A DNA stretch of 58,352 nucleotides from Rickettsiales bacterium (GTDB lineage Bacteria; Bacteroidota; Bacteroidia; Cytophagales; Cyclobacteriaceae). Where the stretch lies: positions 191,995 to 250,346 of the forward strand of contig PBTY01000012.1 of assembly GCA_002729235.1 (NCBI GenBank), written 5' to 3'. The translations under genes were made by a program, and so were the position numbers. Positions 1,853 to 42,566 of the stretch are shown here, in pieces. Position 1 is the stretch's first letter. Each line of letters starts with the position of its first letter. The notes beneath the pieces are model-generated. The model was not told the origin of the DNA. It saw nothing but the letters and a program-made list of their open reading frames with translations, and searched no databases.

Positions 1853-1870
1853 AACGTTACCGGTAACGCT
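1853..1870 (+). promoter_or_regulatory. LacI-type operator, site A (upstream of GH5)
   Basis: AACGTTACCGGTAACGCT is a near-perfect 18-bp palindrome (core CGTTACCGGTAACG), followed by ATTTT. It lies about 150 bp before the GH5 start and after the GH97 terminator, so it belongs to the GH5 promoter. It is one of seven related sites in the window. Binding by the LacI-type protein encoded at 4254-5261 is inferred from shared sequence, not shown. Confidence 0.7.
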
Positions 1871-2018
1871 ATTTTCCCTGAATCCAAATAAGGTGATTGA
1901 GATTAACCATCTGGCCAGTTAAATTATCAATTCATTAATCAAGAGACCTAATACTTCCTTGAATTAACATATTACTCAATAAACAACTCCTTCACAAGGA
2001 ATTTATTAACCCAACACT

Positions 2019-4196
2019 ATGAATCGATTAAAAACACTCCTGTCTTTGTCATTAACACTAGTTGTCTTGATCAGCGTGGCACAGGAAACACGACCTGAAG
2101 GCAACGATGGCACTGGATTCTTCGCCAAGAATGGTAAAATCTATGACCCAGATGGAGAAGAATTTATACCACTAGGATTCAATGCCGCAACATTTTGGGC
2201 TCCGGCAGTGGGTGATTGTAAACAGGCAAATATGTATACAAAGGTTCCACAGAGTGGCGCCAATGCCGTACGAATTGTTTCTCAAGTGGATGGCTCATTC
2301 GGTTGGAATTCCAATCCTACCACTCAAAGGGAGTTGATTGATAGTGCTATTTCTAATCAGCTAGTTCCTATGTTGGAAATGCACAATGCAACATGCGGTG
2401 AACCCCTTCAACCCATAATTGACTATTGGGAATCAGAAACCATGGTGGAGATGGCTAAGGACTTTGAAAAATATCTATGGCTCAATATTGCTAACGAGCA
2501 TAATTTTGACAGCCCGGAAGAATGGCGAGACACTTATATTGACATCATCACAAGCCTTAGATCCAAAGGAGTTAAAAACCTAATAGTGCTGGATGCCGGA
2601 GATCGATGTGGTCAGGATCCAGAGGCGCCACTTACTTATGGCAAAGCTGTTTTAGATGCTGACCCTCAAAAAAATGTTGTATTCTCTATTCATATGTATG
2701 GCTTTTGGAGATCCGAGGATCGAAGTTTTACGGACTGGACCCCTCCTTTTCTCGTTGAAGAAGAATTGCCAAAGTTGAAAGAAACGGGAATCTCCTTAAT
2801 TGTCGGAGAATTTGCTCTGGACGATGAAGCTGCAGGTGAAGGCGGACCTAATTATACCGCGGATTCAGTTTTAGCTGTTTGTCAGCGGAATGGTATTGGA
2901 TGGTATGCCTGGTCTTTTTTCGATAGCCAGGAAGCTTACTATTATTCCATGGTGGATGATGTTTGCGGAGATCTGTCTGAGGAAAACCGTACCATAGCAG
3001 GTAAATACTTCATTCCTTACCTTCAGGAGCATGCATCTATACCTGAGCTAATGGGTTCGTTTCTAAGGGTTTCAGATCCACAAATTACCGTACCTCGAAA
3101 TAATGGTTCGGGATCCTTTTTCATTCAAACCAATGGTGATTGGACTGTAGAAACAGAGGATGCCTGGATTGAAATAGCGACACCAAATGGAACCAAGAAC
3201 GCGAAGGTTCAAATCTCAACTCAAAATACGGATGAAGACAGATCTGGAACAATTACCATTAGAACTAACACGGAAGTATTTGACGTAGAAATCAATCAGG
3301 CTAATGTCCTTAATGTGAATCCAACCTCAATCGAAACACCATCTTTCGCTGGTAGTAAGACGATTGAAATTGAATCAAACGGTGACTGGACCGTATCTAC
3401 TGAAGAACCATGGGTATCGATTTCTAAAACCAGCGGAAGTCTAAATGACACGTTTACCATCTCTTATGAAGCCAATACAGGTGTAGAGAGAAATGGTATC
3501 ATTAGTGTACAAATGAGTGAGAATGACAAGAAAACCATCGAAATCACGCAAGAAGCTCCCTCAGGAGCTCTAACTGAAACCATAAGATTTGAAGGAGAAG
3601 ACTTCTCTGCAAACAATGGTGGTGGATCTGACAATGCCTTAGCAGGTTTTACTGGGGAAGGTTATTTCGACTCAGGGGGTAATGGTTCATGGGTTGAGTG
3701 GACCGTCACTACATTAGGTGGGGATTATGAATTATTCTTCCAATATGCCAATGGTCAGGAGGACGTAAACCGACAATGTGCTTTATCTGTCAATGGGGCC
3801 TCTTTGGGAAATATCCCTTTTTCACCCAGCGGATCGTGGGAAACCTGGATTGCCACCGCAATAATAGAAATTGAATTAAACGAAGGAGAGAACTCCATTC
3901 GATTAACCGCTGCCGATGCAGGCGGACCAAACCTTGATTTTGGAGAGATTACTGGTGGTCCAGCTGAAGAGGAAGTAGTCCTTAATGCAGAAAACAATAA
4001 CATCTCCATTTTCCCGAATCCTTTCACCGGTACTATAGCTATTCAAAACTACAAAGGAAGCTATGAAATCAGAGCAATAAGTGGTCAAATACTAGCAAAA
4101 GGAAACATCGAAAAACAACTAAACCTCTCCTATCTAAAACCAGGTTTATACTTCATCAACCTGGAGGAGAAGACTTTCAAAATCATTAAAAATTAA
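2019..4196 (+). CDS. Secreted GH5 endo-glycanase with two BACON domains, CBM6 and T9SS sorting tail
   Basis: 725 residues. Signal peptide 1-21 (ends VAQ). A GH5 barrel spans about 33-340, with acid/base E160 in LNIANEH and nucleophile E264 in IVGEFAL; the NIANE and HMYGF patterns resemble bacterial beta-mannanases (subfamily 8-like), but the substrate is not proven. Two BACON domains follow (about 348-427 and 430-511, each with the GDWTV...W pattern), then a CBM6-like carbohydrate-binding module (521-643, starting FEGEDF). The C-terminal Por secretion tail begins near 658 (ISIFPNPFTG...LKPGLYFI), so it should leave the cell by type IX secretion. It is the only T9SS-tailed protein seen here; most other enzymes are lipoproteins. 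It stands alone between a terminator on each side and has operator A about 150 bp upstream. Confidence 0.92.
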   Translation: MNRLKTLLSLSLTLVVLISVAQETRPEGNDGTGFFAKNGKIYDPDGEEFIPLGFNAATFWAPAVGDCKQANMYTKVPQSGANAVRIVSQVDGSFGWNSNPTTQRELIDSAISNQLVPMLEMHNATCGEPLQPIIDYWESETMVEMAKDFEKYLWLNIANEHNFDSPEEWRDTYIDIITSLRSKGVKNLIVLDAGDRCGQDPEAPLTYGKAVLDADPQKNVVFSIHMYGFWRSEDRSFTDWTPPFLVEEELPKLKETGISLIVGEFALDDEAAGEGGPNYTADSVLAVCQRNGIGWYAWSFFDSQEAYYYSMVDDVCGDLSEENRTIAGKYFIPYLQEHASIPELMGSFLRVSDPQITVPRNNGSGSFFIQTNGDWTVETEDAWIEIATPNGTKNAKVQISTQNTDEDRSGTITIRTNTEVFDVEINQANVLNVNPTSIETPSFAGSKTIEIESNGDWTVSTEEPWVSISKTSGSLNDTFTISYEANTGVERNGIISVQMSENDKKTIEITQEAPSGALTETIRFEGEDFSANNGGGSDNALAGFTGEGYFDSGGNGSWVEWTVTTLGGDYELFFQYANGQEDVNRQCALSVNGASLGNIPFSPSGSWETWIATAIIEIELNEGENSIRLTAADAGGPNLDFGEITGGPAEEEVVLNAENNNISIFPNPFTGTIAIQNYKGSYEIRAISGQILAKGNIEKQLNLSYLKPGLYFINLEEKTFKIIKN

Positions 4197-4224
4197 AAGT
4201 AAACTTGTCTTCATTACTATCACA

Positions 4225-4253: not shown

Positions 4254-5261
4254 TTATGCAGACTCACGATTCATTAAAGAGGTCTTCAACTCAATGGTCA
4301 CGTTTGACAAGGATGAATTACCTATTCTATCCAATAAAATTTCTACTGACTTTTTACCTACCTCATATGCAGGTTGGATAATCGTAGTAAGAGGTGGCTC
4401 AATAACTTCTGAAAACTCCTCACCCGTAAATCCAACAACTCCAACATCCTGAGGAATCTTATAACCATGCCTTTTTAACCATGCCATACTTCCATACGCT
4501 ACTTCATCACAGACACAGAAGATTGAATCAGGTGGTTCTGGTAGACTCATCAAAGTTTCAGTACACTGCTGACCACTCTTTATACTAAAATCACTATGAA
4601 CCATGTACTGGTCTTTTACCGGATGCCCAGCCTTTTCTAAAGCTCTTACATAGCCCTCAGTTCGTTTGCGAGACAACAACAAGTCCGAAGGCCCCTGAAT
4701 ATGAGCAATGCGCTTATAACCCTTGTTAATCAAATGTTCTACTGCCTGAATAGCTGCATTCATATCATCTACACAAACCTTTGAGGATTCTACTTCCTCA
4801 GCAACGCGATTAAATAGAACGTACGGAATTCCCTTCTTCTTCAGCTCATCCAGATGATCAAAATTCTTGGTCTCACGAGACAAACTTATAATCAGACCAT
4901 CAACTCGTTTGCTAGCCAGCTTGTGAATGATGTCTTTCTCCAAATCATATGACTCACGCGTGTTGCAAATCATGATGTGATAGTCGTTCTCCAGAGCCAA
5001 CTCTTCCATACCTGAAATAGCCTCAGCATAGAAGTAATGATAGCAAGGAACAACCACCCCAATGGTATAAGATTTCTTACTCACTAAACTCACCGCAATT
5101 AGGTTGGGCTCGTAGTTCAATTCGCGAGCAAGCTCCTTCACTTTTGCTTTGGTTTCTGGGTTCACATCTGGACGATCTCTTAGAGCTCTGGAGACAGTCG
5201 ATGTAGAGATTCCCAGCTTGATAGCAATGTGTTTTATTGTTATGGATCTATTCTTCATCAT
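4254..5261 (-). CDS. LacI-family transcriptional regulator
   Basis: 335 residues, normal for the family. The N-terminal helix-turn-helix (about 6-30: ITIKHIAIKLGISTSTVSRAL) and hinge helix (LNYEPN) are followed by a periplasmic-binding-protein-like effector domain (about 62-330). It starts with two tandem ATGs. Its start codon is only about 6 bp from a strong palindrome (site B), so it is probably autoregulated and also controls the divergent gntP-type operon. Six further copies of the same palindrome lie upstream of glycosidase, sulfatase and other genes in this window, making this the best candidate for their regulator. LacI proteins of this type usually bind a sugar or sugar acid that releases them from DNA; the effector is unknown, but the divergent GntP permease hints at a sugar acid. 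Confidence 0.95.
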   Translation of the reverse strand: MMKNRSITIKHIAIKLGISTSTVSRALRDRPDVNPETKAKVKELARELNYEPNLIAVSLVSKKSYTIGVVVPCYHYFYAEAISGMEELALENDYHIMICNTRESYDLEKDIIHKLASKRVDGLIISLSRETKNFDHLDELKKKGIPYVLFNRVAEEVESSKVCVDDMNAAIQAVEHLINKGYKRIAHIQGPSDLLLSRKRTEGYVRALEKAGHPVKDQYMVHSDFSIKSGQQCTETLMSLPEPPDSIFCVCDEVAYGSMAWLKRHGYKIPQDVGVVGFTGEEFSEVIEPPLTTIIQPAYEVGKKSVEILLDRIGNSSLSNVTIELKTSLMNRESA

Positions 5262-5267: not shown

Positions 5268-5285
5268 AACGTTCCCGGTAACGTT
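5268..5285 (+). promoter_or_regulatory. LacI-type operator, site B (lacI / gntP divergent region)
   Basis: AACGTTCCCGGTAACGTT, with an extra half-site GGTAACGTT overlapping its left side (5265-5273), so three half-sites lie in 21 bp. It lies 6 bp from the start of the LacI-type gene and about 80 bp before the gntP-type start, and is followed by a run of T towards gntP. The position suits autoregulation plus control of the divergent operon. Confidence 0.75.
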
Positions 5286-5363: not shown

Positions 5364-6671
5364 ATGAATATGCAGCTTTTTTATCTGGGAATATCACTTC
5401 TTTTTTTGGTTCTGATCATGCTCAAGTTCAGAATCAATGCCTTCATGGCTTTGCTCATGTCGGCATTCCTCATTGGTGTTCTCAATCAAATGGGACTCAT
5501 CCCTACGCTGGAGTCTATCACCACTGGACTCGGCAACACCATCGGATCGCTCGCACTCATCATTACTTTCGGAGCTATGCTGGGTAAGGTGATGGAAGTT
5601 ACCGGTGCCGCTTTTAAGATAACCGATGTGATTGTTCAAAAATTAGGGAAACAGAACATCACCTACGCTGTACTTTTGGCTGGGTTCATCATCGGCCTAC
5701 CCATGATGTACAATGCTAGTTTTTTGGTATTGATACCTATTATCTATGCATTTAGTCATCTCACCAAAATCCCATTACTTCAATTAGGAATTCCGCTATC
5801 TGCGTCACTATCAGTAGCTCATGGCTATTTACCACCGCACCCTGCTCCTGTGGTTGTTTCCCAGATGTATGGAGCCGATATGAACACGGTATTTATTTAT
5901 GGCATCATCGTAGCAATACCAGCGATTATTGTTGCTGGTGTTATCCTGCCAAAGTTCTTCACTAAGCTAGACAATAAGCCACCAGAAAACCTTTTTCAAG
6001 CAACTGACTTTGATCAAAATAATTCTCCATCATTCATCATAAGTCTGCTGTGTGCTATCATTCCTTTTATTCTGATGGCTTCCGCTGCTATCTTCCAAAC
6101 GGAAGAAGATAGCGTTTTACAATTTCTAGGAGATCCTAACATAGCACTTTTTATTGCTGTTTTAATTGCCATTTATTTCCTCGGAGTTAGAAGAGGCATT
6201 TCCAGTAAAAGTTTGATGTCTGATTTGGAAAAATCCATCATGAGCATTGCCATGATCCTACTAATTATTGGTGCTGGTGGCAGTTTCAAACAGGTATTAA
6301 GTGATAGTGGATCAGCAAACTACATCAAAGAATTAGCTGCTGGCTGGTCTTTAAATCCGATCATTTTAGGTTGGCTTCTGGCAGCAGTCATTCGTTTGAT
6401 TTTGGGCTCTGCCACAGTAGCTACCATCACTGCTGCAGGGATAATGGCTCCAATCGTACAACAAGGCATTGTGCCGATGGAGATCATGGTATTGGCCACG
6501 GGATCTGGAAGCCTGATGTTTTCACACTTCAATGACATTGGTTTCTGGATGTTTAAAGAGTACTACAACGTATCCATCAAACAAACATTCATGATCTGGA
6601 CAACCATGGAATGCTTGATTGGAATTATTGGTTTAATCGGTTGCTTAATCTTAAATCTCTTTATAGGATGA
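5364..6671 (+). CDS. GntP-family permease (gluconate / sugar-acid symporter)
   Basis: 435 residues with about 12 hydrophobic segments along the whole length and no soluble domain, typical of GntP-family proton symporters for gluconate and related hydroxy acids. Supporting stretches include the conserved TFGAMLGK region near 70 and GSATVATITAAGIMAP near 345. It acts in the inner membrane. It is divergent from the LacI-type gene with operator B in between, and its stop overlaps the next start as ATGA (6668-6671), so it is translationally coupled to the lipoprotein gene. The exact substrate cannot be read from the sequence; a uronate, aldonate or deoxy sugar acid released by the nearby polysaccharide enzymes is a reasonable inference. 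Confidence 0.88.
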   Translation: MNMQLFYLGISLLFLVLIMLKFRINAFMALLMSAFLIGVLNQMGLIPTLESITTGLGNTIGSLALIITFGAMLGKVMEVTGAAFKITDVIVQKLGKQNITYAVLLAGFIIGLPMMYNASFLVLIPIIYAFSHLTKIPLLQLGIPLSASLSVAHGYLPPHPAPVVVSQMYGADMNTVFIYGIIVAIPAIIVAGVILPKFFTKLDNKPPENLFQATDFDQNNSPSFIISLLCAIIPFILMASAAIFQTEEDSVLQFLGDPNIALFIAVLIAIYFLGVRRGISSKSLMSDLEKSIMSIAMILLIIGAGGSFKQVLSDSGSANYIKELAAGWSLNPIILGWLLAAVIRLILGSATVATITAAGIMAPIVQQGIVPMEIMVLATGSGSLMFSHFNDIGFWMFKEYYNVSIKQTFMIWTTMECLIGIIGLIGCLILNLFIG

Positions 6672-7618
6672 AGCACCTGATTTACATAGCATTACTACTC
6701 CTCTTTTCTTGCCAGTCTCCGGCCAAAAAGATTTTCTATGTCAACTCATACCATCCGGGATATGGGTCTAGCGATCAGGTTCAAGAAGGCATTGTCGAGA
6801 ATATCGACACGACCATATATGCGTTCGAAATGGCTTATTTGAATGCCAAAAAAGCCTCTGATGCAGAACTTGCAAATAATGCCGAAACGATTTGGAACCA
6901 AATCAAGTCGAATTCTCCAGATCTCTTAATCGTATCTGATGACAATGCCGTGCAAAGCATTGTTGTCCCACATCTGAAGGAATTGGATATTCCAATATTG
7001 TTTTGTGGGGTCAACTGGTCAGCCGATAAATACAACCTACCTGCTAATCAGGTATCCGGGATGCTGGAAATCCTTCCAGTTGAAGCTTCTCTTGACCTAA
7101 TCAAAAAGTCGGGTTGGAAGTATTCTAAAATCACGATTTTATCAGAAAACTCTGCTGGGGAAATCAAGAATAAAGAAACCCTAACACCTCTCTTAACCAA
7201 CAGAGGCCTCGAGGTAAATTATCAAATGGTAGATGATTTTGATGCCTGGAAAAGGGGTTTTAAAGAATCTCAAAGTGACAGTTCCAACATTGTTTTCCTA
7301 CCAACTAATGGAGCTATCAAGAATTGGAATAATCAAGATGCCACCTCATGGGTACAAGAACACCTAGTTGTTCCGGTCTTCACCTGTGATGACTTTATGG
7401 TACCCTACGCCACATTTGGTTTAACCAAGGTAGCCAAAGAACAAGGAGAATGGGTAGTGAAAAGAGCAATCGAAATTCTCGAAAAGAAAATAGAAATCAA
7501 CAACCTATCAGTAGCAAACAACTCTCAGTTCGAATGCTTCCTCAATGAGCCATTGATGGAACAGATTGGGCTGAACCTGGGAAATGATGTAAGATGTAAA
7601 AGCTATCAGAATGAATAG
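6668..7618 (+). CDS. ABC-type substrate-binding lipoprotein (PF04392-like)
   Basis: 316 residues from the ATG at 6668. This start is chosen because it gives a clean lipoprotein signal (LLLLFSC, Cys at about 14) and a 4-bp ATGA overlap with the permease; the longer frame from 6611 lies inside the permease gene. KIFYVNSYHPGY near the N-terminus, PILFCGVNWS and FTCDDFMVPYATFG match the two-lobed ABC_sub_bind/TrpX-like family that binds small organic ligands. No ABC permease or ATPase gene is adjacent. Its partners are a GntP symporter and an amidohydrolase, so it may bind the ligand for sensing or delivery outside the usual ABC setting. The start of the next gene overlaps its end by 8 bp. Confidence 0.8.
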   Translation: MKHLIYIALLLLFSCQSPAKKIFYVNSYHPGYGSSDQVQEGIVENIDTTIYAFEMAYLNAKKASDAELANNAETIWNQIKSNSPDLLIVSDDNAVQSIVVPHLKELDIPILFCGVNWSADKYNLPANQVSGMLEILPVEASLDLIKKSGWKYSKITILSENSAGEIKNKETLTPLLTNRGLEVNYQMVDDFDAWKRGFKESQSDSSNIVFLPTNGAIKNWNNQDATSWVQEHLVVPVFTCDDFMVPYATFGLTKVAKEQGEWVVKRAIEILEKKIEINNLSVANNSQFECFLNEPLMEQIGLNLGNDVRCKSYQNE

Positions 7619-8636
7619 TGACTTAGCCAACGAAAAGATTAATAATTTATTAGAGTACTTACTAGCCAACGGATCTCACCTGGTTATTGACGGAGACACC
7701 CATCCGACAGACCTATCCACCCTTGAGGGAAACATTCGTGATCGGTTCAAGGAAACCACAGACTATTATCAGGGTCGTCCGATAAGCCCTGAGCAATTGA
7801 TTCAATCAATGGACTGTAGTGGAGTAGACATGTCACTTACGTGGCAGAATCCTGCAGCATTTGACTATGGTGAAGACGAGTCAGAAAACTTCCAGAGATT
7901 GCTTCGTGCCAATCAGGATATTGCACGATTTGCCGAGAAATATCCAACACGATTCATTCCAGCAGGATGGACTGACCCCAAAAGTCTGGGAGTTGAGTAT
8001 GCGTGCAAACTAGCTGAAATATGTGTACAAGATTTAGGCTTTACAATAGTAAAAATGAATCCTGCGCAAAATTCATTTCCTATTGATAGTCCTATGGTTA
8101 AGACTGTGGTCGACAAAATAGTTCAGCTAGGTGCTGCCTCCGCATTTCATTTTGGAGGGGACTCCCCCTTTACCCCTCCTTCAGGCTTCAAAAAATTACT
8201 TGAGCAATACCCAAAACATCCTTTTATAGGTGTGCATATGGGTGGTGGTGGCTCCCACTATGTAGATGGTGATGACACCTATATTGGAGCAAGGAGTCTG
8301 GGAATCGAGCACCCAAATCTATTCTATGTGATTAGTGCTAAGAGAGATTGTCATCTGGAAACCGACATGGTGCTCTATTTTGAAAAAGGTGCACCATACG
8401 CTCAAAACTTAGGATGGGGAAGTGACGCCCCATATGGTCTTCAAAGCTGGAATCTGGGTGGTTCGAAGGAATTAATTAATAGTTTAAGTAAACAAGTGTC
8501 TATGTCAAGACCAGTAAATGACCCTAAACTATATGGAGGTGATAACCTATCAGGATATATGGGTAGCAACCTGGCTAGAATAGTCATTAAATCGGCCAAA
8601 AACATCCTTGCTAAAAACAACATTACTGTTTCATAA
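7611..8636 (+). CDS. Amidohydrolase-family (Amidohydro_2) metal-dependent hydrolase
   Basis: 341 residues, no signal peptide, hence cytoplasmic. The TIM-barrel metal ligands of the Amidohydro_2 family are visible: DTH (H31) after strand 1, H180 in AFHFGG, H209 in GVHMGG and D272 in WGSDAPYG. Family members hydrolyse lactones or decarboxylate or hydrate carboxylic acids; the real substrate here is unknown. It is the third gene of the gntP-type operon and overlaps the lipoprotein gene by 8 bp, so it probably acts on whatever the permease brings in. LacI-type control through site B is inferred. Confidence 0.85.
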   Translation: MNSDLANEKINNLLEYLLANGSHLVIDGDTHPTDLSTLEGNIRDRFKETTDYYQGRPISPEQLIQSMDCSGVDMSLTWQNPAAFDYGEDESENFQRLLRANQDIARFAEKYPTRFIPAGWTDPKSLGVEYACKLAEICVQDLGFTIVKMNPAQNSFPIDSPMVKTVVDKIVQLGAASAFHFGGDSPFTPPSGFKKLLEQYPKHPFIGVHMGGGGSHYVDGDDTYIGARSLGIEHPNLFYVISAKRDCHLETDMVLYFEKGAPYAQNLGWGSDAPYGLQSWNLGGSKELINSLSKQVSMSRPVNDPKLYGGDNLSGYMGSNLARIVIKSAKNILAKNNITVS

Positions 8637-8729
8637 TGCACCGAGCATTAAAGCTCTATTGGGCTGAGTAAATGATAGAAGGCAAATCTGATCAAACTTC
8701 TGTATCATGTGCATACTTTCATCAGATTC

Positions 8730-8810: not shown

Positions 8811-10538
8811 TTAATTAGATTGTAAAGTATAAATGCTATTAGCTTCAAGAATAATATAACTACCTCCATCAGATACGCCTGCCACTTCTTCACAATTGCT
8901 ATCCTCTGATGTCTGGTAGACTTTAAAACCGTTCTCAAAACCCTCATTACCCGTCAATCGAATCAATTGCTCATTGCTACTATCATTGATAAAGACAAGC
9001 GTTAATGTTTCATTGCCTGGATGATGAAAGGCCACCACTCCTACTTGCTCATGATCCAATTCCGAAGCTACCTGTACTGCTCCAGGCCGTATGAACCGAT
9101 AGAAGTTTTTAGAGGTCCAGTATTTGGGTCGTTCATCCGAAGTTTGACCATTCTTAGTAAACCCATTTCGAGTATTGGTCTCCCAGTCTGGTGCACCGAC
9201 AGACCACCAGAGCCATGCTGACACTTTCCCAAACTTAAGTGCTGAGAAAATTCGTTTACCTGCATTAAAGGCACCTTCCCATCCCCCATTTTCTTCCGTT
9301 TCGGTCATCCATAGTGGTTTTTCTCCACCTTTTTGCGAATAGTCATACAATTGTCCCCACTCCGAAGCTGAACCTGATTCGATGGTAATCCCATCTCCAG
9401 CATAACTATGTGTTGCCATTATATCCATGTAGGTATGAGCTACCGGATCTGCAAATACGGGATCCATGATAGTGGTCATTCGTTCAAGGAATCTCACCGT
9501 CTCTGGCCCCATTATTCTCACATTTATTCCGTCAGCGACCAGCCGCTCTTTAACCAACTTTAAAACTGTATTGTAATTATCACCAGTATAACTACAACCA
9601 AATGTCCATTCAGGATGCTCCAGGTTTGGTTCATTTTGAATGCTAATGGCATAAGGCGTCACCCCACTCAGTGCAATGAATTCTTTGAGGTAATCACGAA
9701 TAAAATCAGCAAAGTCTCCAAAGTGCTCTTCGGCCAAACTTCCTTTCATATGATCTTCATTGGTCTTCATCCATGCCGGAGGGGTCCAAACCGACATAAT
9801 GTATTTGAGCTCCTCTCCCTTTGATTGAAGTTTTTCATTTAGCCCTTTAGCGTACATTGCCTTCGTACTTAGTTGCGTACCAATTGGCCCTACTGGTGTA
9901 TCCTTTCCATCATAAAATGTATTGGTTGATGGAATTTGGTTATTGCTCTCATCTCTGGGAAAAAGGGGAGTCATCCCATCCACATCATATTCTCCCTCAA
10001 AAGCCTCAAAACCAGGACTTATATCATCTCGAAAGATTGTAGCTCCCCAATCGTCAATCATCAGGTCCAACCAGGCATCATCCCAATAACCCCGCCCCTT
10101 TCCGTATCGATTAGGATCTGGACTGAAATAGAAAGGAATTGCAGGTCCAGCACCACCAAAACCATCGATGGTTTGATAAGTAGTAGATAAATCAATAATC
10201 ACCTGTTTGCTCTGCAAATCAAGGTCTAATGACGCTTCCGTCTGATTATCTCCATCGGACACGGTTAAATGTATGGAGTGCACTTCTTCTGGCTCCAGAG
10301 CTAATTCTATCTCCTCTCCATCTTCATCAAGTACCTGATCATTCAATTCCCACAGATAATCCAATTGCTCCGAATCATCAACTACAGTAGCTTTTAGCTT
10401 AAAAACAAATGGCTCTACCGAGATTCGTTCGGATTCCAATGTTACTATTGGTTGCTTGTTCTCTGGCGATGCCCCTTCTTTCTCTCCACAAGAAGTAAGA
10501 AATAAGGCTCCAATGAGAATTCGAAATAGTTGATTCAT
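8811..10538 (-). CDS. GH30-family glycosidase lipoprotein with PKD-like domain
   Basis: 575 residues. The lipoprotein signal ends at LTSC (C17). A PKD/Ig-like domain (about 28-110: VTLES...YLWELNDQ...HLTVSDGDN) precedes a GH30 barrel (about 115-480) and the short beta-domain typical of GH30. The catalytic pair is visible: acid/base E303 in IQNEPN and nucleophile E413 in WMTETEE. GH30 members cut beta-1,6-glucan, beta-1,6-galactan, xylan, glucosylceramide or fucosides; the subfamily cannot be fixed by eye. Lipidation suggests anchoring in the outer or inner membrane. It is transcribed alone, divergent from the GH3 operon, with operator C in the shared promoter region and a strong terminator after it. 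Confidence 0.92.
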   Translation of the reverse strand: MNQLFRILIGALFLTSCGEKEGASPENKQPIVTLESERISVEPFVFKLKATVVDDSEQLDYLWELNDQVLDEDGEEIELALEPEEVHSIHLTVSDGDNQTEASLDLDLQSKQVIIDLSTTYQTIDGFGGAGPAIPFYFSPDPNRYGKGRGYWDDAWLDLMIDDWGATIFRDDISPGFEAFEGEYDVDGMTPLFPRDESNNQIPSTNTFYDGKDTPVGPIGTQLSTKAMYAKGLNEKLQSKGEELKYIMSVWTPPAWMKTNEDHMKGSLAEEHFGDFADFIRDYLKEFIALSGVTPYAISIQNEPNLEHPEWTFGCSYTGDNYNTVLKLVKERLVADGINVRIMGPETVRFLERMTTIMDPVFADPVAHTYMDIMATHSYAGDGITIESGSASEWGQLYDYSQKGGEKPLWMTETEENGGWEGAFNAGKRIFSALKFGKVSAWLWWSVGAPDWETNTRNGFTKNGQTSDERPKYWTSKNFYRFIRPGAVQVASELDHEQVGVVAFHHPGNETLTLVFINDSSNEQLIRLTGNEGFENGFKVYQTSEDSNCEEVAGVSDGGSYIILEANSIYTLQSN

Positions 10539-10640: not shown

Positions 10641-10658
10641 AGCGTTGCCGGGATCGTT
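10641..10658 (-). promoter_or_regulatory. LacI-type operator, site C (GH30 / serine hydrolase divergent region)
   Basis: On the minus strand AACGATCCCGGCAACGCT followed by ATTTTG. It lies about 103 bp before the GH30 start and about 85 bp before the divergent serine hydrolase start, so it could control both units. Left half weaker than in sites A and B. Confidence 0.6.
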
Positions 10659-12015: not shown

Positions 12016-12019
12016 TGGC

Positions 12020-14088: not shown

Positions 14089-14091
14089 GAA

Positions 14092-15858: not shown

Positions 15859-15867
15859 CAGTATAGT

Positions 15868-20480: not shown

Positions 20481-20484
20481 TCCA

Positions 20485-25152: not shown

Positions 25153-25177
25153 AGCCCCAATTTTGAAAATTAGGGCT
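25153..25177 (-). terminator. Possible terminator after the monooxygenase-like gene
   Basis: AGCCC, C, AATTTT, G, AAAATT, A, GGGCT is a long inverted repeat. On the minus strand it is followed by GTTTATT, a weak T tract. It lies about 50 bp past the end of the 25227 gene and before the GH37-like operon. Confidence 0.4.
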
Positions 25178-25182: not shown

Positions 25183-25200
25183 AATGTTCCCGGGAACGTT
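25183..25200 (+). promoter_or_regulatory. LacI-type operator, site D (upstream of GH37/GH92 operon)
   Basis: AATGTTCCCGGGAACGTT, with perfect inner palindrome GTTCCCGGGAAC, followed by ATTTTG. The nearest start it could control is the GH37-like gene about 135 bp to the left on the minus strand. Its ATTTT side points away from that gene, unlike most other copies. Confidence 0.65.
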
Positions 25201-27979: not shown

Positions 27980-27997
27980 CCATTCATCGGGAACGTT
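27980..27997 (+). promoter_or_regulatory. LacI-type operator-like half-site, site E (upstream of M23-like gene)
   Basis: CCATTCATCGGGAACGTT followed by ATTTTT. The right half is intact (GGGAACGTT) but the left half is degenerate, so it is a weak or half operator. It lies 77 bp before the M23-like start. Confidence 0.45.
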
Positions 27998-34526: not shown

Positions 34527-34544
34527 CATCATTCCGGGAACGTT
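34527..34544 (+). promoter_or_regulatory. LacI-type operator-like site F (upstream of NAT)
   Basis: CATCATTCCGGGAACGTT followed by ATTTT. Right half intact, left half partly conserved (TTCC). It lies 45-62 bp before the NAT start. Confidence 0.45.
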
Positions 34545-35415: not shown

Positions 35416-37557
35416 CTACCTCTCCAACCCAACTTCAAAGATTCTACCATCATAATCCTTCTCTATCGTCACAACAAATCCATCTTCCATAAGGGATTGA
35501 CCGGAGGCTTTAAGTAGTTCATTTTGTGATGGTGCCTCCCTTATTACATACACCTGATCTGGAATAAGATCGCTTAAAAACACCTTTCGCTCCTCTTCCC
35601 CAGCTCCCTGACGGAACACTCCAAAAATACCTCCCTCCATGGTTTTGAAGTTGATCCGCTGCCAACCATCCCAGTGACCTTCTCTCGGCTCACCAAAACC
35701 AGCAAGGTCTCTTCGATAAGACATATAATCATATTTGTCCTGCATATTCTGCATCCACTCAGACCAGTTTCGGATCTCTTTTCGCTGCTCAGAAGACAAT
35801 TTTCGAGGATCACCTAATACAATCGGAAAAGTGCCTACCAAAGACTTTAAACAGAATTGGAAATCAGGATCATCAAGTGGCTGATTCCCAATAACCATAG
35901 AGCTTGCAGGAATTGCCGGAGATCTCCACCACGCCATCTGACGCACGCGCAAAGGACCTGTTGGTGATGGCTCCTCAAAATTGGAAAGCCAGTTACCTTC
36001 TGCATGTTGCGCAATTGCATAATCCATCAGCTGCATTTTACCAGCCGTTTCAAATGTGCAATCAATGAACAATTCTGGAGCCTCCTCATGGAGGTCATCA
36101 AAGAAATCAAGTAAGCGTTGATACAAGACAATAAAGGATTCATTATGGTCGCGATATCTGAAGTGATCCTTAGCATAAGAGCCGGATATCTCGTCATTAT
36201 TAAGATAAGGACTTGTCACAATCGCCAGGTCAAGCTTAGCGTATTGCAAGCCATGTTCCTTGACCAGATTGAGTATTTTCCCTTTGATAAATTCATACCA
36301 ATCCGTCCCAAAGGAGGCCGAATAAAAGCCATCTTCAGGTTTTGCATCATAGTGGAGATTACCAGGATTGCCTTCCTTGTCCTTCACGAACCACTCAGGA
36401 TGCTTCTTGAATACCTGTGAATCATCGGTCGCTGACGCAATCGAGATCCATAGCCCAGGGGTCATTCCCAAAGATTTGATGTAATCAAAAGTTGGCTTTA
36501 GCCCACCAGGAAATTTATTTTCATCCACCAACCAGTCTCCATAATTTTCACCCCAACCTTTAATGGTTGATTGACGGTGATGATTGACCTGCCAGCCATC
36601 ATCGATGACAAACTCCACAATTCCACACTCAGCTGCAGCTTTGGCTACACTTCGCACCAGCGTATCACTCAACTGAGTTCGAAAAGGGTACCACGTATTG
36701 TAAACAAATACGGGTTTCTCAGCGAGTTTTGTGATTCTCGTTTCCATATGAAGCGTCACAAATCGATTCACTTCCTGATCTATGACTTGGAAGCCATCAT
36801 CCCGATCTTCATAGAGACACACAAAAGTCTTAGGACTTTCCCAGACCTGTCCGGGATTCAAATATTTTCGGAAACCAAATGATTGATCCGGATGTGTCAG
36901 TCCAATTTCCACATTGTTTTTGGTGGTGTGATAAGCAGTCCTTTTTAGCACCGCCACACCTTCGTTTCCTAGGGCCATTCCCATTCGTTGGCTGATATCA
37001 TGAACCACCACTACAGGGTCATCCCAATTTCTCACATACTGTCCAAGGTGCTTCATCCGCCCATAATTATGATGTACCACCGACTGAATAAATGAAAACC
37101 GGGTGTCCAGATCCTCAACATTGAGGCGTTCCAACTTCAATATTGGCTTACCAATATTCTGAAAAGTGATCCACTTACGGATCAGAGGTAGATCAGGATA
37201 AAGAAGAAAATTAAGCGAGACTTTGAGCCGAGTCGTTTTTGATTGGAGGTCTATTTGGACGCCTTTCCCATTACTTGAATCTTGAATTGGTGAAGTACCT
37301 AAAAAGACCCACTCAGAGAAACCAGAAAGCAATTCATCATTAATTGTAAATGAAAAATCCTTACTTGATAATGACACTCCGATAGTATCATTTGTTAATC
37401 CAAAGAAGGTAGTTTGAATGGAATCACCAGAAAAACTAAGCACCCTTCTAACCAGTCCATTATCAAGAATGACCTGATCACCGTTTTGCATATAATAGTC
37501 CTGAGCCTGAATCTGGTATGCGGTAAGGAAAAGCAGAAATGCAATCTTAAGACGCAT
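35416..37557 (-). CDS. GH36-like alpha-galactosidase (variant acid/base region)
   Basis: 713 residues from the ATG at 37557; signal peptide 1-18 (AYQIQAQ). The N-terminal sandwich (about 20-270), barrel (about 280-620: PVFVYNTWYPFRTQLSD, EFVIDDGWQ) and C-terminal sandwich of GH36 are present. The nucleophile is D443 in YAKLDL. The GH36 acid/base Asp, usually in a SDNTD-like motif, is replaced here by HAEGNW around 518-523 (E520 candidate), and the ligand-binding CxSG segment is CTFETAG. So it may use another carboxylate or another substrate. It would release alpha-galactose in the periplasm. Its start lies 6 bp inside the convergent... same-strand sulfatase end, so the two are coupled. Confidence 0.85.
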   Translation of the reverse strand: MRLKIAFLLFLTAYQIQAQDYYMQNGDQVILDNGLVRRVLSFSGDSIQTTFFGLTNDTIGVSLSSKDFSFTINDELLSGFSEWVFLGTSPIQDSSNGKGVQIDLQSKTTRLKVSLNFLLYPDLPLIRKWITFQNIGKPILKLERLNVEDLDTRFSFIQSVVHHNYGRMKHLGQYVRNWDDPVVVVHDISQRMGMALGNEGVAVLKRTAYHTTKNNVEIGLTHPDQSFGFRKYLNPGQVWESPKTFVCLYEDRDDGFQVIDQEVNRFVTLHMETRITKLAEKPVFVYNTWYPFRTQLSDTLVRSVAKAAAECGIVEFVIDDGWQVNHHRQSTIKGWGENYGDWLVDENKFPGGLKPTFDYIKSLGMTPGLWISIASATDDSQVFKKHPEWFVKDKEGNPGNLHYDAKPEDGFYSASFGTDWYEFIKGKILNLVKEHGLQYAKLDLAIVTSPYLNNDEISGSYAKDHFRYRDHNESFIVLYQRLLDFFDDLHEEAPELFIDCTFETAGKMQLMDYAIAQHAEGNWLSNFEEPSPTGPLRVRQMAWWRSPAIPASSMVIGNQPLDDPDFQFCLKSLVGTFPIVLGDPRKLSSEQRKEIRNWSEWMQNMQDKYDYMSYRRDLAGFGEPREGHWDGWQRINFKTMEGGIFGVFRQGAGEEERKVFLSDLIPDQVYVIREAPSQNELLKASGQSLMEDGFVVTIEKDYDGRIFEVGLER

Positions 37558-37562
37558 GATCA

Positions 37563-38990
37563 CTAATTCTTCGAAGTGAATGGAAATAGATCAGAGTGAG
37601 TTCTGGAGGCACTCATCAGCGAATCAAGCTCTTTCACTTTTTCAGGAAATTGACCTGCCACATCGTTGGTCTCACCTAGATCCATGCTCAGATCATAAAG
37701 CTCGATTGGGCCTCCAGGATTTGCGATTGCATCTGGTCGGACAGCTTTCCATTTACCCTGAAGAATGGCTTGAGAACCACTTCCTTCATGAAATTCAAAA
37801 TAGAGGTCAGTATGTACTTTTTGATTGGATAGCCCCAGCAAAGTAGGCACAAAGCTGATTCCATCTGTATTTTCAGGGGTAGATTCTCCAGCCAACTCAG
37901 CCAGCGTAGGCATCATATCCCAAAATGCACCCTGAAAATCAGAGGTCGTACCAGCCTTAACCTTCCCTTTCCATCTGGCAATCATTGGCTCCCGAATACC
38001 ACCTTCATAGAGATCTCTTTTACCTCCTCTTAGATCACCATTACTATCGAAGAAGTCAGTGGTTGGATGATTGTTGTACGGTCCATTATCCGAAGTGAAC
38101 ATGATTAGTGTATTTTCATCAAGCCCAAGTGCATCAATTTGATCTATCAGCACCCCAATGCAGCTATCCATTCGAGTGATCATGGCCGCATAATCCTTGT
38201 GCGTTTTTGGCCAATCCTCCTTTGCATATATCCCCTGGCTAGGAACTTCAAATCGCATGCTATCAGGTTGCTCCCCATTGTCATGAGGAGCAGTTATTGG
38301 CAAATACAAGAAGAATGGGTTTGCTTGATTTTCTGTGATGAAGGCTGCAGCTTCTTCAAACATCAAATCATTGGAGTAATCAACTTTCTTGGTGGAATAG
38401 CTCCCCAGTCCATCATGCCAAGCTGCGGTATCCAGGTACTTTACTTCATTTCTTAGATAGATCTTATCATTGTTTCTCCACAAATATTCGGGGTAATAAT
38501 TATGTGCCAACACCTGATCGGTGTAGCCGAAAAAGAAGTCCCAACCGTGTTTCAGTGGATTCCCAGGAGTGCTTGGCTCACCTAAACCCCACTTACCGAT
38601 CATCGCGGTAGTATAGCCCGCCTCTTTCATTACCGTTGCAATGGTGGTTGTGCCAGCCGAAAGTGGCTGTTGACCATTTCTTAGTCCATACTGTTTGTTT
38701 CCCCTGATCTCAGTATGTCCGGTATGCAGACCGGTAATCAATGAAGATCTGGAAGGTGCACATACCGAAGTACCTGCATAGAATTGGGTAAATTTCATTC
38801 CTTCAGAAGCCATTTCATCCAATCGTGGTGTTTGGATCTTGGTTTGTCCATAGGCACCAATATCTGCATAGCCTAAATCATCAGCCATGATGAAAATGAC
38901 ATTGGGTTTCGTTTTAGCAGGCTCTTTCTGTTCTGGCGAGCAACTGAATAACAGAAAGGAGATAATAGAAATAGTTAGGTACTTATTCAT
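37563..38990 (-). CDS. S1-family sulfatase lipoprotein (GalNAc-6-sulfatase-like)
   Basis: 475 residues; lipoprotein signal with LLFSC (C17). Metal site DDL (37-39), formylglycine motif C77-APSRSSLITGLHTGH, then MIGKWGLG, ITAPHDNGE and TSDNGPYNNHP. The GLHTGHTEIRGN pattern and the GGKRDLYEGGIREPMIARWKG block resemble galactosamine/arylsulfatase A-type enzymes of the S1 family. Removes sulfate from sugar units in the periplasm. It is followed directly by the GH36-like gene; 72 bp separate it from the SGNH gene upstream, so it may have its own promoter or belong to the 42468 operon. Confidence 0.93.
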   Translation of the reverse strand: MNKYLTISIISFLLFSCSPEQKEPAKTKPNVIFIMADDLGYADIGAYGQTKIQTPRLDEMASEGMKFTQFYAGTSVCAPSRSSLITGLHTGHTEIRGNKQYGLRNGQQPLSAGTTTIATVMKEAGYTTAMIGKWGLGEPSTPGNPLKHGWDFFFGYTDQVLAHNYYPEYLWRNNDKIYLRNEVKYLDTAAWHDGLGSYSTKKVDYSNDLMFEEAAAFITENQANPFFLYLPITAPHDNGEQPDSMRFEVPSQGIYAKEDWPKTHKDYAAMITRMDSCIGVLIDQIDALGLDENTLIMFTSDNGPYNNHPTTDFFDSNGDLRGGKRDLYEGGIREPMIARWKGKVKAGTTSDFQGAFWDMMPTLAELAGESTPENTDGISFVPTLLGLSNQKVHTDLYFEFHEGSGSQAILQGKWKAVRPDAIANPGGPIELYDLSMDLGETNDVAGQFPEKVKELDSLMSASRTHSDLFPFTSKN

Positions 38991-39062
38991 GATTTGTTTA
39001 GGCTAAATCTTATTTATGTAAGTTGATTGGAACTCGACCCTTCATGCGCCAATGAGTATATT

Positions 39063-39815
39063 CTACCACTCCTTCTCCTGATCATTTACCACCTGATCGG
39101 CTACTTGCCTGAAAAACTCAGTATCCAGTTGATCAAAAAAGATGAGGTTGATATATTCTCCATTGCTGTCTTTGTAATCCAAGGACCAATGAATAGATGC
39201 AGGAATTTCACCAGTAATCTTCCGAACCATCGTACAGGCCGTAAGGAAACTACCATAAATCGATGGATGACTCCCATCTGGGGCATAAAGCTTAATTGTT
39301 GGTCTGAGATCACTGGCATATGCCCATGCATCCCCTACAGGTATAACATTAGCTCCACTTCTGGTAGCAGCCTCTAGATAAACAGCATTGATCTGAGATT
39401 GCATTTGAGGAAGTTTCTCTCTCGCCCATGTATTATATAAGTAGGTTTCTGCCCCATTTTCTCTAGCCAGTTCAGCAAACAATCGCATGTACTTAATCAA
39501 GCTATCTGGATACTCGATAGCCCCCATGCTATGATCCTGCAATACGACTACATCAAAATCTCCTGAAGCAACAAGTGACCTGGATTGAAGTCCTCTTTGC
39601 TCAAGCCAATGCTCCCAAATATGGGCTCCACCTTTAACACTCTTGCGAGTTTCTAATTTGGTAGATCCATAGTCAGAAATCAGAGATACTACATGTGATA
39701 AATTATTGTAGTTGGTATAGCTATTACCCACAAAAAGGACTTTGAGCGTATCCTTTTGAGCTGTCAAGTTTAGACTCGCACAGCTCACAACGAGTAAAAT
39801 CAGAATTCTTTTCAT
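39063..39815 (-). CDS. SGNH/GDSL-type esterase (DUF4886-like)
   Basis: 250 residues with signal peptide 1-19 (SLNLTAQ). SGNH blocks are visible: FVGNSYT (S32 nucleophile candidate), KGGAHIWEHW, VVLQDHS and DGSHPS with D180 and H183. Such enzymes remove acetyl or other ester groups from carbohydrates. Its start overlaps the GH172-like stop by 4 bp (39812-39815). Confidence 0.85.
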   Translation of the reverse strand: MKRILILLVVSCASLNLTAQKDTLKVLFVGNSYTNYNNLSHVVSLISDYGSTKLETRKSVKGGAHIWEHWLEQRGLQSRSLVASGDFDVVVLQDHSMGAIEYPDSLIKYMRLFAELARENGAETYLYNTWAREKLPQMQSQINAVYLEAATRSGANVIPVGDAWAYASDLRPTIKLYAPDGSHPSIYGSFLTACTMVRKITGEIPASIHWSLDYKDSNGEYINLIFFDQLDTEFFRQVADQVVNDQEKEW

Positions 39816-41041
39816 TTGGTTGAGGTTTTAAGGTTGTGTAATCGCATAGCTAATGACTGCAGGTCTGGTAAATCATTGGTTGGTTTTGATAAATAGAAAT
39901 ATGCTGTGGCACTGTAATCGTCCGATCTATAGAAATTTGTCCAGGATCTAGGGTAATCCTGATCATCCAAATCCAGGACCTCTCCAGGTTCATAGACATG
40001 ATTTAAATGTTCGGTCAAAATAGTTACCGGAATTAGCGGTACACCTTTATTCTGAATTCGGTTCAGTTTCCAATGAGGAGCACCACCCATCTGCTGATGA
40101 GTGACCTTTATTCCCTCACTGAAGTATATAGGATCTACTACATGAAATCGATAATAAGCCCATTGGTACATGGAGTCATTAGCTATAGTACATCCGGTGT
40201 ATCGATTGATAAACTTCCCCTGTCCCCAGGCAGTACCGATGTAATCTTCAGTGCCTGTACCTACAAGTGTCGGCCATTCTTCATCCCCATCTTCATACAT
40301 TTTGATCTCCCCTTCGCCCCACCAGGTGTCTTCATACAACGGATTGGCATTTACACCTACGTTGACACCAAGAAATCTTCCAGTACCACTGACTTGTGGC
40401 AACAATTCAAAATCTTCCGTCAAAGTTGTAGCCGTATCCCTACTCCAATAACAATGAAAATACAGCATGTCATCACTCCAATTTGGAAGAAGCTGGTAAT
40501 CAATATCAAAAAAGATGCTGTTATCATTCAATGAAAGTGAATCCGACTCATTGGTCAATACTATCTTTGCAGCAGACTTGAAAGGCATCGGAATAAAGCT
40601 ATTGAAAGATCTCCCTTCAGGATTGGCGAAATACTCATTTTGAAACACGATAGTCCTACCCAATCCAACACTAAAGAAGTCTCCAAAAGGAACTGAAACA
40701 GCAGGTTTACTTGAATGATCCCAATACATATCCAATCGAAGTGATCTCAACATTTCAGGTGACCGATCTCTTACTGTAAACCACATCCTTCTAATAACAC
40801 CAGTTGCTTCAATATTGAGTAAATCAATAGACTCACCGGGTTCTAATCCAACACTTGGTCTTCCTTTAGCTCCATTATTGAGTTGACCTCCCTCTCCTTT
40901 TAATCCATTAATATTTTCGGGACTACTCCACCGAGTATCAGCATCCTGATAGGAATATACTGGAGGATTTAAATCAACTGTTTTGGATGGCTGACATGAA
41001 AAGCCAATAATTAAGACACTTAAAATCAATAGAATTCTCAT
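39812..41041 (-). CDS. GH172 (DUF2961) glycoside hydrolase lipoprotein
   Basis: 409 residues; lipoprotein signal with IGFSC (C16). DUF2961 signatures are RWSSPENINGLKGEGGQLNN, GVIRRMWFTVRD, VPFGDFFSVGLG, and GTGTEDYIGTAWGQG, the latter containing the catalytic Glu candidate. Family members act on furanosides (fructofuranosides and D- or L-arabinofuranosides) and assemble as trimers. It overlaps the sulfatase before it and the SGNH gene after it by 4 bp each. This suggests a furanose or another ketose side chain in the target; inference. Confidence 0.9.
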   Translation of the reverse strand: MRILLILSVLIIGFSCQPSKTVDLNPPVYSYQDADTRWSSPENINGLKGEGGQLNNGAKGRPSVGLEPGESIDLLNIEATGVIRRMWFTVRDRSPEMLRSLRLDMYWDHSSKPAVSVPFGDFFSVGLGRTIVFQNEYFANPEGRSFNSFIPMPFKSAAKIVLTNESDSLSLNDNSIFFDIDYQLLPNWSDDMLYFHCYWSRDTATTLTEDFELLPQVSGTGRFLGVNVGVNANPLYEDTWWGEGEIKMYEDGDEEWPTLVGTGTEDYIGTAWGQGKFINRYTGCTIANDSMYQWAYYRFHVVDPIYFSEGIKVTHQQMGGAPHWKLNRIQNKGVPLIPVTILTEHLNHVYEPGEVLDLDDQDYPRSWTNFYRSDDYSATAYFYLSKPTNDLPDLQSLAMRLHNLKTSTK

Positions 41042-42468
41042 CTCTGACTTTTTAAGAGTTCCTTCAGCTCACTAACCGTTTCTGAATAAGCACTGTCCAT
41101 GGCAAGATTGGTTAACTCCTTTGGATCTGACACGTGATCATATAGCTCCTTACCATATTCACCTTGCTTCCATTCAGTGTACCTCCATCGATCAGTACGT
41201 ACACTTCTACCCAGCAATTGCATTCCCCAATTTGGTTTGGAACGATCCGGTGTTCCATCTGGACGAGCAACTACCATATGAGCAGCCCTACGCCATGACA
41301 GTTCTGGATTTGTTAGCAAAGGCACGAAACTTCGACCGTTCAGATTTTTAGGAGCATCTAGACCGGCCAACTCTGCAAGTGAAGGGTATAGATCAACCAT
41401 CTCCGTTAATTTGCTAATGTCTCCCCCTCCATCATGACCAGGAGCCGAGACAATCAAAGGAACCAAATTGGCCTCTTCAAATAAATTAAACTTATGCCAC
41501 AGTCCATGCTCCCCCAAATTGTATCCATGATCACTAGTAAATACCACGATTGTATTATCCTTTAATCCCAAACTATCCAAAGCATTAAGAATTCGCCCAA
41601 CTTGAGCATCCATAAAGGAAATAGAAGCATAATAAGCCTGTACTGCCAGCTTCAAATCAGATTCAGGTAGTCCATAGTTTGGGTTAACCACAGTAGAAAC
41701 CGCCAATTCTGGGATATCCTCTCGATCATTGCCTAGTTTGGGAATTACGATTTCAGCGGTATCATACAAATCAAAATATTTCTTTGGTGCTATATAGGGA
41801 CAATGAGGGCGGAAAAATCCAGAAGCAATGAAAAATGGTTCTTCTTGATGCATAGACAATAGATCAATTATCTCTGTGGCAACCATACCATCAGTTTGCT
41901 CCTTATCTTCACCGTCAGCTTGTAAAAATGAAAGACTTGCACCAAGGTGCTTGTTGGGAGTGAGGTTAATCACCTGATCTTCATCCCATTTATCTCGTCC
42001 TTTTGGATTTCTTCGCTCGTTCCAGGAAAGGGTGTCGTCTAACCCATCCGTACCAATATCTCCAGGAACTCCATAATGAAACAGCTTCCCGACTCTAGCA
42101 GTAAAATATCCATTATTCATGAATAATTGAGGCAACGTTACCACATCAGGACGATAGTCTCTGAAATTGGTTTCATTGATGAATACATTAGTTGAGTCGG
42201 GATATAGTCCAGTCAGAATAGAAACCCTACTTGGACCACACAATGGAAGCTGGCAATATGCTCGGGTGAACTTCACCCCTTCTTGAGCAAGCTGATCAAT
42301 ATTTGGGGTTTGGACTAAAGGATGCCCATAAGCACCAATATTGTTATTGAGATCATCCGAAATGATCAAAAGCACATTCATTTTGGGAGGATCCTCACTG
42401 CATGATAACAGAGCTATTGCTCCAACAAATGATAAGCAATAAAGCCACCATCTTGAACGGTTCATCAT
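41038..42468 (-). CDS. S1-family sulfatase lipoprotein (iduronate-2-sulfatase-like)
   Basis: 476 residues; lipoprotein signal with LLSC (C23). Metal site SDDLNNN (37-43), formylglycine motif C77-GPSRVSILTG, GFFRPHCPY, TSDHGYNLGEHGLWHKF and a DHVSDPKELTNLA end, all seen in iduronate-2-sulfatase-like members. Removes sulfate from sugar chains in the periplasm. First gene of the minus-strand sulfatase/GH172/SGNH operon and divergent from another sulfatase, with operator G between them. Confidence 0.93.
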   Translation of the reverse strand: MMNRSRWWLYCLSFVGAIALLSCSEDPPKMNVLLIISDDLNNNIGAYGHPLVQTPNIDQLAQEGVKFTRAYCQLPLCGPSRVSILTGLYPDSTNVFINETNFRDYRPDVVTLPQLFMNNGYFTARVGKLFHYGVPGDIGTDGLDDTLSWNERRNPKGRDKWDEDQVINLTPNKHLGASLSFLQADGEDKEQTDGMVATEIIDLLSMHQEEPFFIASGFFRPHCPYIAPKKYFDLYDTAEIVIPKLGNDREDIPELAVSTVVNPNYGLPESDLKLAVQAYYASISFMDAQVGRILNALDSLGLKDNTIVVFTSDHGYNLGEHGLWHKFNLFEEANLVPLIVSAPGHDGGGDISKLTEMVDLYPSLAELAGLDAPKNLNGRSFVPLLTNPELSWRRAAHMVVARPDGTPDRSKPNWGMQLLGRSVRTDRWRYTEWKQGEYGKELYDHVSDPKELTNLAMDSAYSETVSELKELLKSQR

Positions 42469-42548
42469 CTGGTTAATAGGGTGTTTGATGTTGATTAAAT
42501 TTCAACCCACAAGTTAGCTACTACCACATCGCAATGCCCAATTTCGGA

Positions 42549-42566
42549 ATGGTTACCGGGAACGTT
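42549..42566 (+). promoter_or_regulatory. LacI-type operator, site G (between two divergent sulfatases)
   Basis: ATGGTTACCGGGAACGTT followed by ATTTTG. The right half is complete and the left half good (GGTTACC). It lies about 81 bp from the minus-strand sulfatase start and 83 bp from the plus-strand one, so it can serve both. Confidence 0.65.

Follow-up and report, generated by a model that had tools for sequence, protein, structure and literature searches.

Introduction

The Escherichia coli regulators GntR and IdnR bind an operator centred on ACCGGT and have a gntP-type permease as target. LacI regulons have also been charted by comparative genomics (Ravcheev et al., 2014; PMC4052901), and according to the main text of that survey the operators are mostly even palindromes with a central CG, the targets serve sugar utilisation, more than 75% of the sites lie 30–140 bp before a start codon, and autoregulation is given at 72%. 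The same text treats the Bacteroides phylum as a single taxonomic group and names UxaR, UxuR and KdgR there. For Bacteroides thetaiotaomicron, the main description assigns the LacI regulators KdgR, UxaR, UxmR and UxuR to glucuronate, galacturonate and mannuronate pathways and keeps HTCS and SusR-like regulators separate (PMC3878776). The carrageenan regulon of Zobellia galactanivorans is under an AraC-type regulator, CgrA, and the word 'LacI' is absent from the main text that describes it (PMC5698469). Here we describe a set of intergenic sites with the 18-bp core AACGTTNCCGGNAACGYT in and just upstream of a 58,352-nucleotide stretch of DNA from a member of the Cyclobacteriaceae; this whole stretch is called the window.

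We read these sites as operators of a local LacI-type regulon over a SusC/SusD sulfated-glycan cluster, recognised by the LacI-family protein encoded at 4254–5261 of the window, and give this reading a probability of about 0.88. The most likely mechanism is local repression, as in the regulons that PMC4052901 surveys, and judged by sequence the regulon is conserved in part in three other genera.

Results

Predicted operator sites are confined to one gene cluster

The window corresponds to C13:191995–250346 of the host genome (6.55 Mb, 116 contigs). The original prediction, made from the letters of the window, listed seven 18-mers with a nearly invariant right half (GGKAACGYT). All seven are present, the right half is as described, and ATTTT does follow six of the seven when C is read on the minus strand, with TTTTTT at B.

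1853..1870, + strand: site A, full operator AACGTTACCGGTAACGCT-ATTTT; ATTTT toward GH5 (start 2019, 148 bp from the operator)
5268..5285, + strand: site B, full operator AACGTTCCCGGTAACGTT-TTTTT; lacI at 6 bp, gntP at 78 bp
10641..10658, − strand: site C, full operator AACGATCCCGGCAACGCT-ATTTT; ATTTT toward a GH30-like gene (102 bp), opposite row at 85 bp
25183..25200, + strand: site D, full operator AATGTTCCCGGGAACGTT-ATTTT; 134 bp 5' of the GH37/GH92/esterase/sulfatase row, ATTTT directed away
27980..27997, + strand: site E, half-site CGGGAACGTT-ATTTT exact; left half degenerate (2/8), M23-peptidase gene 77 bp on
34527..34544, + strand: site F, half-site CCGGGAACGTT-ATTTT exact; left half degenerate (4/8), arylamine N-acetyltransferase gene 44 bp on
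42549..42566, + strand: site G, operator ATGGTTACCGGGAACGTT-ATTTT; left half 6/8, amid two divergent sulfatase units (46 and 80 bp)

Another three full sites precede the window, at C13:175417 (U1), C13:184128 (U2) and C13:184481 (U3).

With up to two mismatches, the pattern AACGTTNCCGGNAACGYTATTT, which is AACGTTNCCGGNAACGYT-ATTT, has eight matches in the 6.55 Mb, all within C13:175–235 kb (five in the window, three upstream), and its reversed control has none. The pattern CGGNAACGYTATTTT matches exactly seven times, always in the cluster, for 0.14 exact matches expected genome-wide; one mismatch adds six further matches, three of them in the cluster (reversed control 1). When the core was scanned without ATTT, 8 of the 11 places with up to two mismatches fell in the cluster. 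Three-mismatch core matches are uninformative because the reversed control gave 50 versus 20 per strand (up to three mismatches, unsplit), and CCGGKAACGYT alone is weak, with 12 matches versus 9 in the reversed control. All ten cluster sites avoid open frames of at least 100 codons, and just 6.4% of the stretch lies outside such frames; the look-alikes elsewhere, on contigs C38, C44 and C4, fall inside stop-to-stop frames of 869, 541 and 261 codons (a two-mismatch place on C33 is left out of this comparison). All seven sites are genuine and greatly exceed chance expectation, and the genome-wide scan proposed with the original prediction finds them confined to the cluster, not scattered.

An inverted repeat followed by ATTTT is also the look of an intrinsic terminator or of a dispersed repeat, and site E, which lies 6 bp past a stop codon, and site A both lie downstream of a same-strand gene. 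B, C, G and the U2/U3 pair, however, sit between divergent genes, where no transcript ends, so that their placement is not that of terminators. A start codon follows 44–188 bp from the operator on the ATTTT side at A, B, C, E, F, G and U2. Moreover, a mobile repeat would hardly be confined to one cluster of a 6.55-Mb genome, nor kept at the three orthologous places in another genus that are described below. We consider this explanation highly improbable.

The seven sites had been taken for copies of one palindrome, which holds for five of them. The left half matches AACGTTNCC at eight of eight positions in A and B, seven in C and D, six in G, four in F and two in E, and random DNA of the same composition reaches at least four in 11% and at least six in 0.4% of draws; by these counts E and F qualify only as half-sites and the other five as palindromes. 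With U1, U2 and U3 included, eight of the ten cluster sites are even palindromes with a central CG, E and F failing on the left half. A 23-mer weight matrix made from the eight full sites scores them at 32–39 bits (by construction), F at 17.7 and E below 8, and Markov nulls (3 × 130 kb) reach 20.7. Despite these low scores E and F are more than chance, because GGGAACGTTATTTT, with one mismatch allowed, was found four times in the host genome, always exactly, and the four places are D, E, F and G (reversed control 1; about 0.08 exact matches expected).

Sites and regulator are conserved together in three relatives

The proposed reader of the sites is encoded next to site B.

4254..5261, − strand: LacI-family regulator, proposed site reader (PF00356 + PF00532)

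Its N-terminal LacI helix-turn-helix (PF00356) scores 49.0 bits against a cut-off of 27, and its periplasmic-binding-protein-like sensor domain 127.9 against 22.2. The protein passes no equivalog cut-off among the 18 NCBIfam families listed. A CCGG-centred LacI-type operator adjoining gntP is shared with E. coli GntR and IdnR; identity with these regulators was rejected, as the protein falls far below their NCBIfam cut-offs (116 vs. 433 for GntR, 174 vs. 500 for IdnR). Site B had been thought to overlap the start region of the gene but does not overlap it: it lies 6 bp before the lacI ATG, and the orthologous site in relative G439 lies 12 bp before its lacI.

Seven relatives encode a LacI homologue at E 1e-95 or better (G439, G362, G507, G510, G450, G453 and G538), and in three of the seven the regulator and sites are conserved together, with three sites in G439, one in G362, and two full sites plus one half-site in G507. 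G439 belongs to a different genus of the same family (LacI 73% identical). The ATTT-bearing pattern has three matches there at up to three mismatches, all in one cluster on contig C7 (reversed control 2), and these are orthologous to U2 (SusC), C (GH30) and B (lacI/gntP); scanning C7:1–100000 for the core without ATTT gave the same three sites and two three-mismatch places. Between the host and G439, the U2 pair is identical at 28 of 28 bases over TTGCA-AACGTTCCCGGCAACGCT-ATTTT amid a diverged promoter, and the orthologue of site B keeps the T-run on its gntP side. Orthologues in the G439 cluster are LacI and GntP (73% each), a 490-residue protein (71%), a sulfatase (67%), an amidohydrolase (60%), GH30-like and GH37 proteins (57% each), SusC (50%) and SusD (44%).

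In G362 (LacI 50%), gntP, amidohydrolase and SusC/SusD genes stand beside lacI together with a one-mismatch site. The gntP and amidohydrolase genes adjoin the LacI homologue in both G362 and G439, and the amidohydrolase gene does so in G507. In the latter (LacI 52%), two full sites lie 5' of lacI, and a half-site with ATTTT lies 271 bp before a GH129-like gene that is followed by a sulfatase gene. Within the host's own genus, five further species were compared, and they have neither AACGTTNCCGGNAACGYTATTT sites (up to two mismatches) nor a LacI protein at E 1e-95 or better.

The core lies upstream of LacI genes at part of its loci in the order

The exact core is present in 39 of 380 genomes of the order (own included), and the reversed pattern in 2 of 380, by reading of the table. 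The count at up to two mismatches (40 of 390 genomes, own included) was not used alone as evidence; because the reversed pattern then hits about 29 genomes, we relied on the exact-core search and on where its matches lie. Thirty exact-core loci were fetched, 29 of them from other genomes, and 11 of these 29 hold a LacI homologue, each with a site within 350 bp upstream. A search with ATTT in the pattern, whose loci overlap the exact-core set, found a LacI homologue at 14 of 29 non-own loci.

Nine species of a distant genus (g60) have a site 5' of lacI, and their aligned gap is invariant at AAAATA.CGTTACCGG.AACGTT..CGG.AA; in the one species that was read for genes, a galactokinase gene lies on the far side of the site. 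In G210, one site separates lacI from galK-galT and a second precedes a symporter gene. At this locus, L127:7816–11980, the LacI gene with its CCGG-type sites is divergent to galK-galT, and the adjacent SSF symporter gene carries a site of its own; the arrangement is probably a galactose regulon.

Two further arrangements were noticed among the order's loci. Sites of the form AACGTTNCCGGNAACGTTNYCGG are stacked in a 12-bp register beside a full core at L073–L081, L086, L094, L107 and L115; a LacI homologue is present at 11 of 13 such loci, and CpG steps recur every 6 bp, which suggests overlapping occupancy by LacI dimers. Another LacI group (L023, L041, L044, L060) has a longer upstream site, TGCAAACGTTTGCGGTGACGTTTGCA in L060 with variants in the other three.

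Which LacI-type protein would read the sites

Of the 70 distinct LacI homologues compared, 21 are preceded by a site (up to one mismatch) at no more than 350 bp. An Arg after the recognition helix is found in 18 of these 21, in 11 of the 49 others and in the 4254–5261 protein, a correlation that is confounded by kinship and by the choice of loci. In a tree, the 4254–5261 protein (P0001) groups with L037, L038 and L046 (99/93), of which L046 has a one-mismatch site upstream; we place little weight on this tree because of its long-branch warnings, which include P0001 with L037. A 37% LacI relative in Terrimonas, the sole match of one contig scan with the LacI protein, was too distant to use.

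The host genome encodes four further LacI homologues, with 32–40% identity to the 4254–5261 protein, and the sites might be read by the cluster's other LacI-type regulator, C13:174354–175388. This protein is itself a LacI homologue, and the perfect core U1 lies 28 bp past the end of its gene. Upstream of that gene, however, there is no site within 350 bp (best 7 mismatches), and its protein has Asn after the recognition helix where the 4254–5261 protein and 18 of the 21 site-bearing homologues have Arg. The site-bearing LacI of G439 is also 73% identical to the 4254–5261 protein and 36% identical to the C13:174354–175388 protein, which is without a second match in C7:1–100000. The alternative reader is thus improbable.

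The two further LacI-type genes on the same contig, at L003:2354–3388 and L001:5163–6200, have no AACGTTNCCGGNAACGTT-type site upstream, and the second has ACTGTTTGCGCAATCGTT upstream.

The flank usually faces the adjacent gene

The ATTTT or T-run faces the adjacent gene at 7 of the 10 own sites (A, B, C, E, F, G and U2), and at U3 it faces SusC only beyond U2. It also points to the target at the three G439 sites, the one G362 site, the G507 half-site and both G210 sites, and to galK in one g60 species; these relatives were found, local scans excepted, with an ATTT-containing pattern. ATTT is missing at 26 of the 29 exact-core loci of other genomes and at both full G507 sites. Our best guess is that the ATTTT flank is a promoter-linked element or a second contact.

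It is possible, if doubtful, that the ATTTT-flanked half is a promoter element or second-factor site that the LacI core overlaps and that E and F carry alone, an explanation compatible with a LacI-type regulon. The orientation at the 7 own sites speaks for it, as does the retention of ATTTT or a T-run at the G439 sites, at the G362 site and in the gap 5' of lacI in the nine g60 species; the loci without ATTT speak against it. So does the behaviour of TANNTTTG, the Bacteroidota −7 consensus. It was not found downstream of ATTTT (17 sequences, 27 summed mismatches vs. a null mean of 23.6, p 0.97), nor was it clearly enriched in 58 own upstream regions, where there were 10 sense and 6 antisense occurrences and shuffles gave a mean of 7 and a maximum of 12–13. 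A −33/−7 promoter with the operator as spacer (TTTG-N19-TATTTT, which fits U2) was also considered and is unsupported by these TANNTTTG tests.

We tentatively propose that the functional unit may be a polar element of about 28 bp, approximately TTNYGNN-AACGTTNCCGGNAACGYT-ATTTT, whose ATTTT-side half alone could recruit a gene, as at E, F and the G507 copy. If true, a dimer on one strong half-site with a fixed flank, or LacI with a partner (e.g. RNA polymerase), would make control directional, and unrelated neighbours could be drawn into the regulon cheaply by half-operators. Polar flank and half-sites together would be a concrete departure from the textbook symmetric operator.

Genes marked by the sites

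3..1784, + strand: GH97; same strand, after the genes at C13:184553–191813, whose upstream region has U2/U3
2019..4196, + strand: GH5 with BACON and sorting domains; target of A
5364..8636, + strand: gntP permease, ABC_sub_bind protein and amidohydrolase genes; beside site B
8811..10538, − strand: GH30-like gene (PF02055 just below cut-off); target of C
10744..18630, + strand: beta-lactamase fold, MocA oxidoreductase, 3-keto-disaccharide hydrolase, GH3 and lambda-carrageenase-like genes; possible second target of C
18990..25048, − strand: GH37, GH92, esterase, sulfatase row; probable target of D
35416..42468, − strand: sulfatase, DUF2961, DUF4886-like (below cut-off), sulfatase, melibiase-like row; probable target of G, minus side
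42613..44409, + strand: sulfatase; target of G, ATTTT side

On one side of U2/U3 are SusC/SusD genes, and on the other are genes for a 255-residue protein, a 3-keto-disaccharide-hydrolase-like protein, a 490-residue protein, GH30 and GH78, then GH97. The SusC/SusD pair (L003:8703–11939 and 7084–8703), together with GH30, GH78, GH97, GH5, GH3 and sulfatases, marks the cluster as a polysaccharide utilisation locus. The GH97 part of the window had been singled out as lacking a site, and none was seen there, probably because GH97 follows the same-strand row behind U2/U3; GH97 is thus probably covered by the operon behind these upstream sites, for which we predict co-transcription, and the exception probably vanishes. 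The expectation that sites stand at carbohydrate units was borne out for GH5, lacI/gntP, GH30, the GH3 row, the GH37/GH92 row and the sulfatases at G, but not for E (M23 peptidase) or F (arylamine N-acetyltransferase). U1 adjoins a gene with FG-GAP and UnbV/ASPIC domains.

A non-carbohydrate run at 25.2–35.4 kb of the window splits the sugar cluster and holds the half-sites E and F; its genes encode DUF4180, HEAT/alkylation-repair-like, EVE, RibD_C, M23 peptidase, ADH, racemase, cupin and NAT proteins. In or near the sugar cluster, two genes, at L003:3507–6857 (behind U1) and L002:1216–4776, encode large proteins that combine many FG-GAP repeats with a UnbV/ASPIC domain. Between site D and the start of GH37, an inverted repeat, AGCCCCAATTTT-G-AAAATTAGGGCT, occupies positions 25153–25177 and could belong to the GH37 leader RNA; an Rfam scan of the window at gathering thresholds gave no match.

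Discussion

In the proposed mechanism, a dimer of the 4254–5261 protein would bind the 18-bp core (central CpG, half-site AACG) between the genes of the 60-kb cluster, the bound repressor would shut the SusC/SusD polysaccharide cluster, its own gene included, and a sugar released from the glycan would free the repressor. From the sites and their placement we infer binding, repression and autoregulation by this protein. The effector may be a galactose-related sugar, a guess made because some LacI relatives adjoin galK or galK-galT; these galK neighbours point to a galactan sugar, as do the GH129-like gene of G507 and, in the present cluster, the sulfatase and carrageenase-like genes. If the 4254–5261 protein does read the sites, about thirty enzyme, transporter and sulfatase genes over about 60 kb would be one switchable set, and LacI control over SusC/SusD, sulfatases and glycoside hydrolases gives a hypothesis on what switches a large sulfated-glycan cluster. 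It predicts orphan members, namely the genes behind U1–U3, E and F, and the core sequence can serve as a lead to LacI-controlled sugar genes across the bacterial order.

Several observations weigh against this regulon. E and F misfit a dimer operator and stand at non-carbohydrate genes, and at D and U1 the ATTTT is directed away from the likely target. The LacI-type gene, described in the original prediction as the only one, is so in the window (Pfam scans) but not in the cluster, which has a further homologue at C13:174387 (34%); a more distant one at C13:137163 (39%) lies about 38 kb before the cluster. In G439, C7:1–100000 has no match (E 1e-10) to the GH5, GH97, GH3, lambda-carrageenase-like, GH92 and GH78 proteins, which means that this relative shares the cluster only in part. 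The comparison of relatives that had been proposed as a check finds the sites kept with the regulator in another genus but not near lacI in four more distant relatives: in G510, G450, G453 and G538 (LacI 48–50%), there is no site with up to three mismatches in about 1.5 kb (less in L131) beside lacI, and the pattern search has no match on the lacI contig. Finally, 18 of the 29 non-own exact-core loci are without a LacI homologue. Set against these points are the confinement of the sites to one cluster and their conservation across genera, on which the regulon as first proposed still stands.

Our literature search, for which RegPrecise was outside the scope, recognised no description of this operator in Bacteroidota. 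As in Zobellia, a marine member of the Bacteroidota for which the description reports distributed sulfatase, hydrolase and susCD units that are induced together (PMC5698469), the units here are spread over a cluster; relative G507 carries GH129, sulfatase and GH2 genes. With the B. thetaiotaomicron regulators, as described in PMC3878776, the locus shares the phylum and LacI-type control of sugar catabolism; unlike them, the LacI-type protein here apparently extends its reach to the SusC/SusD, hydrolase and sulfatase units of a single cluster. It resembles the regulons in the main text of PMC4052901 in its even palindrome with central CG, its site-to-start spacing, the operator at the regulator's own gene and its sugar targets, whereas that main text has neither 'half-site' nor 'asymmetr', and half-sites and a polar flank are features here. 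The kind of system is thus already known, and the new part is this gene set with its lopsided, polar site and the half-site copies.

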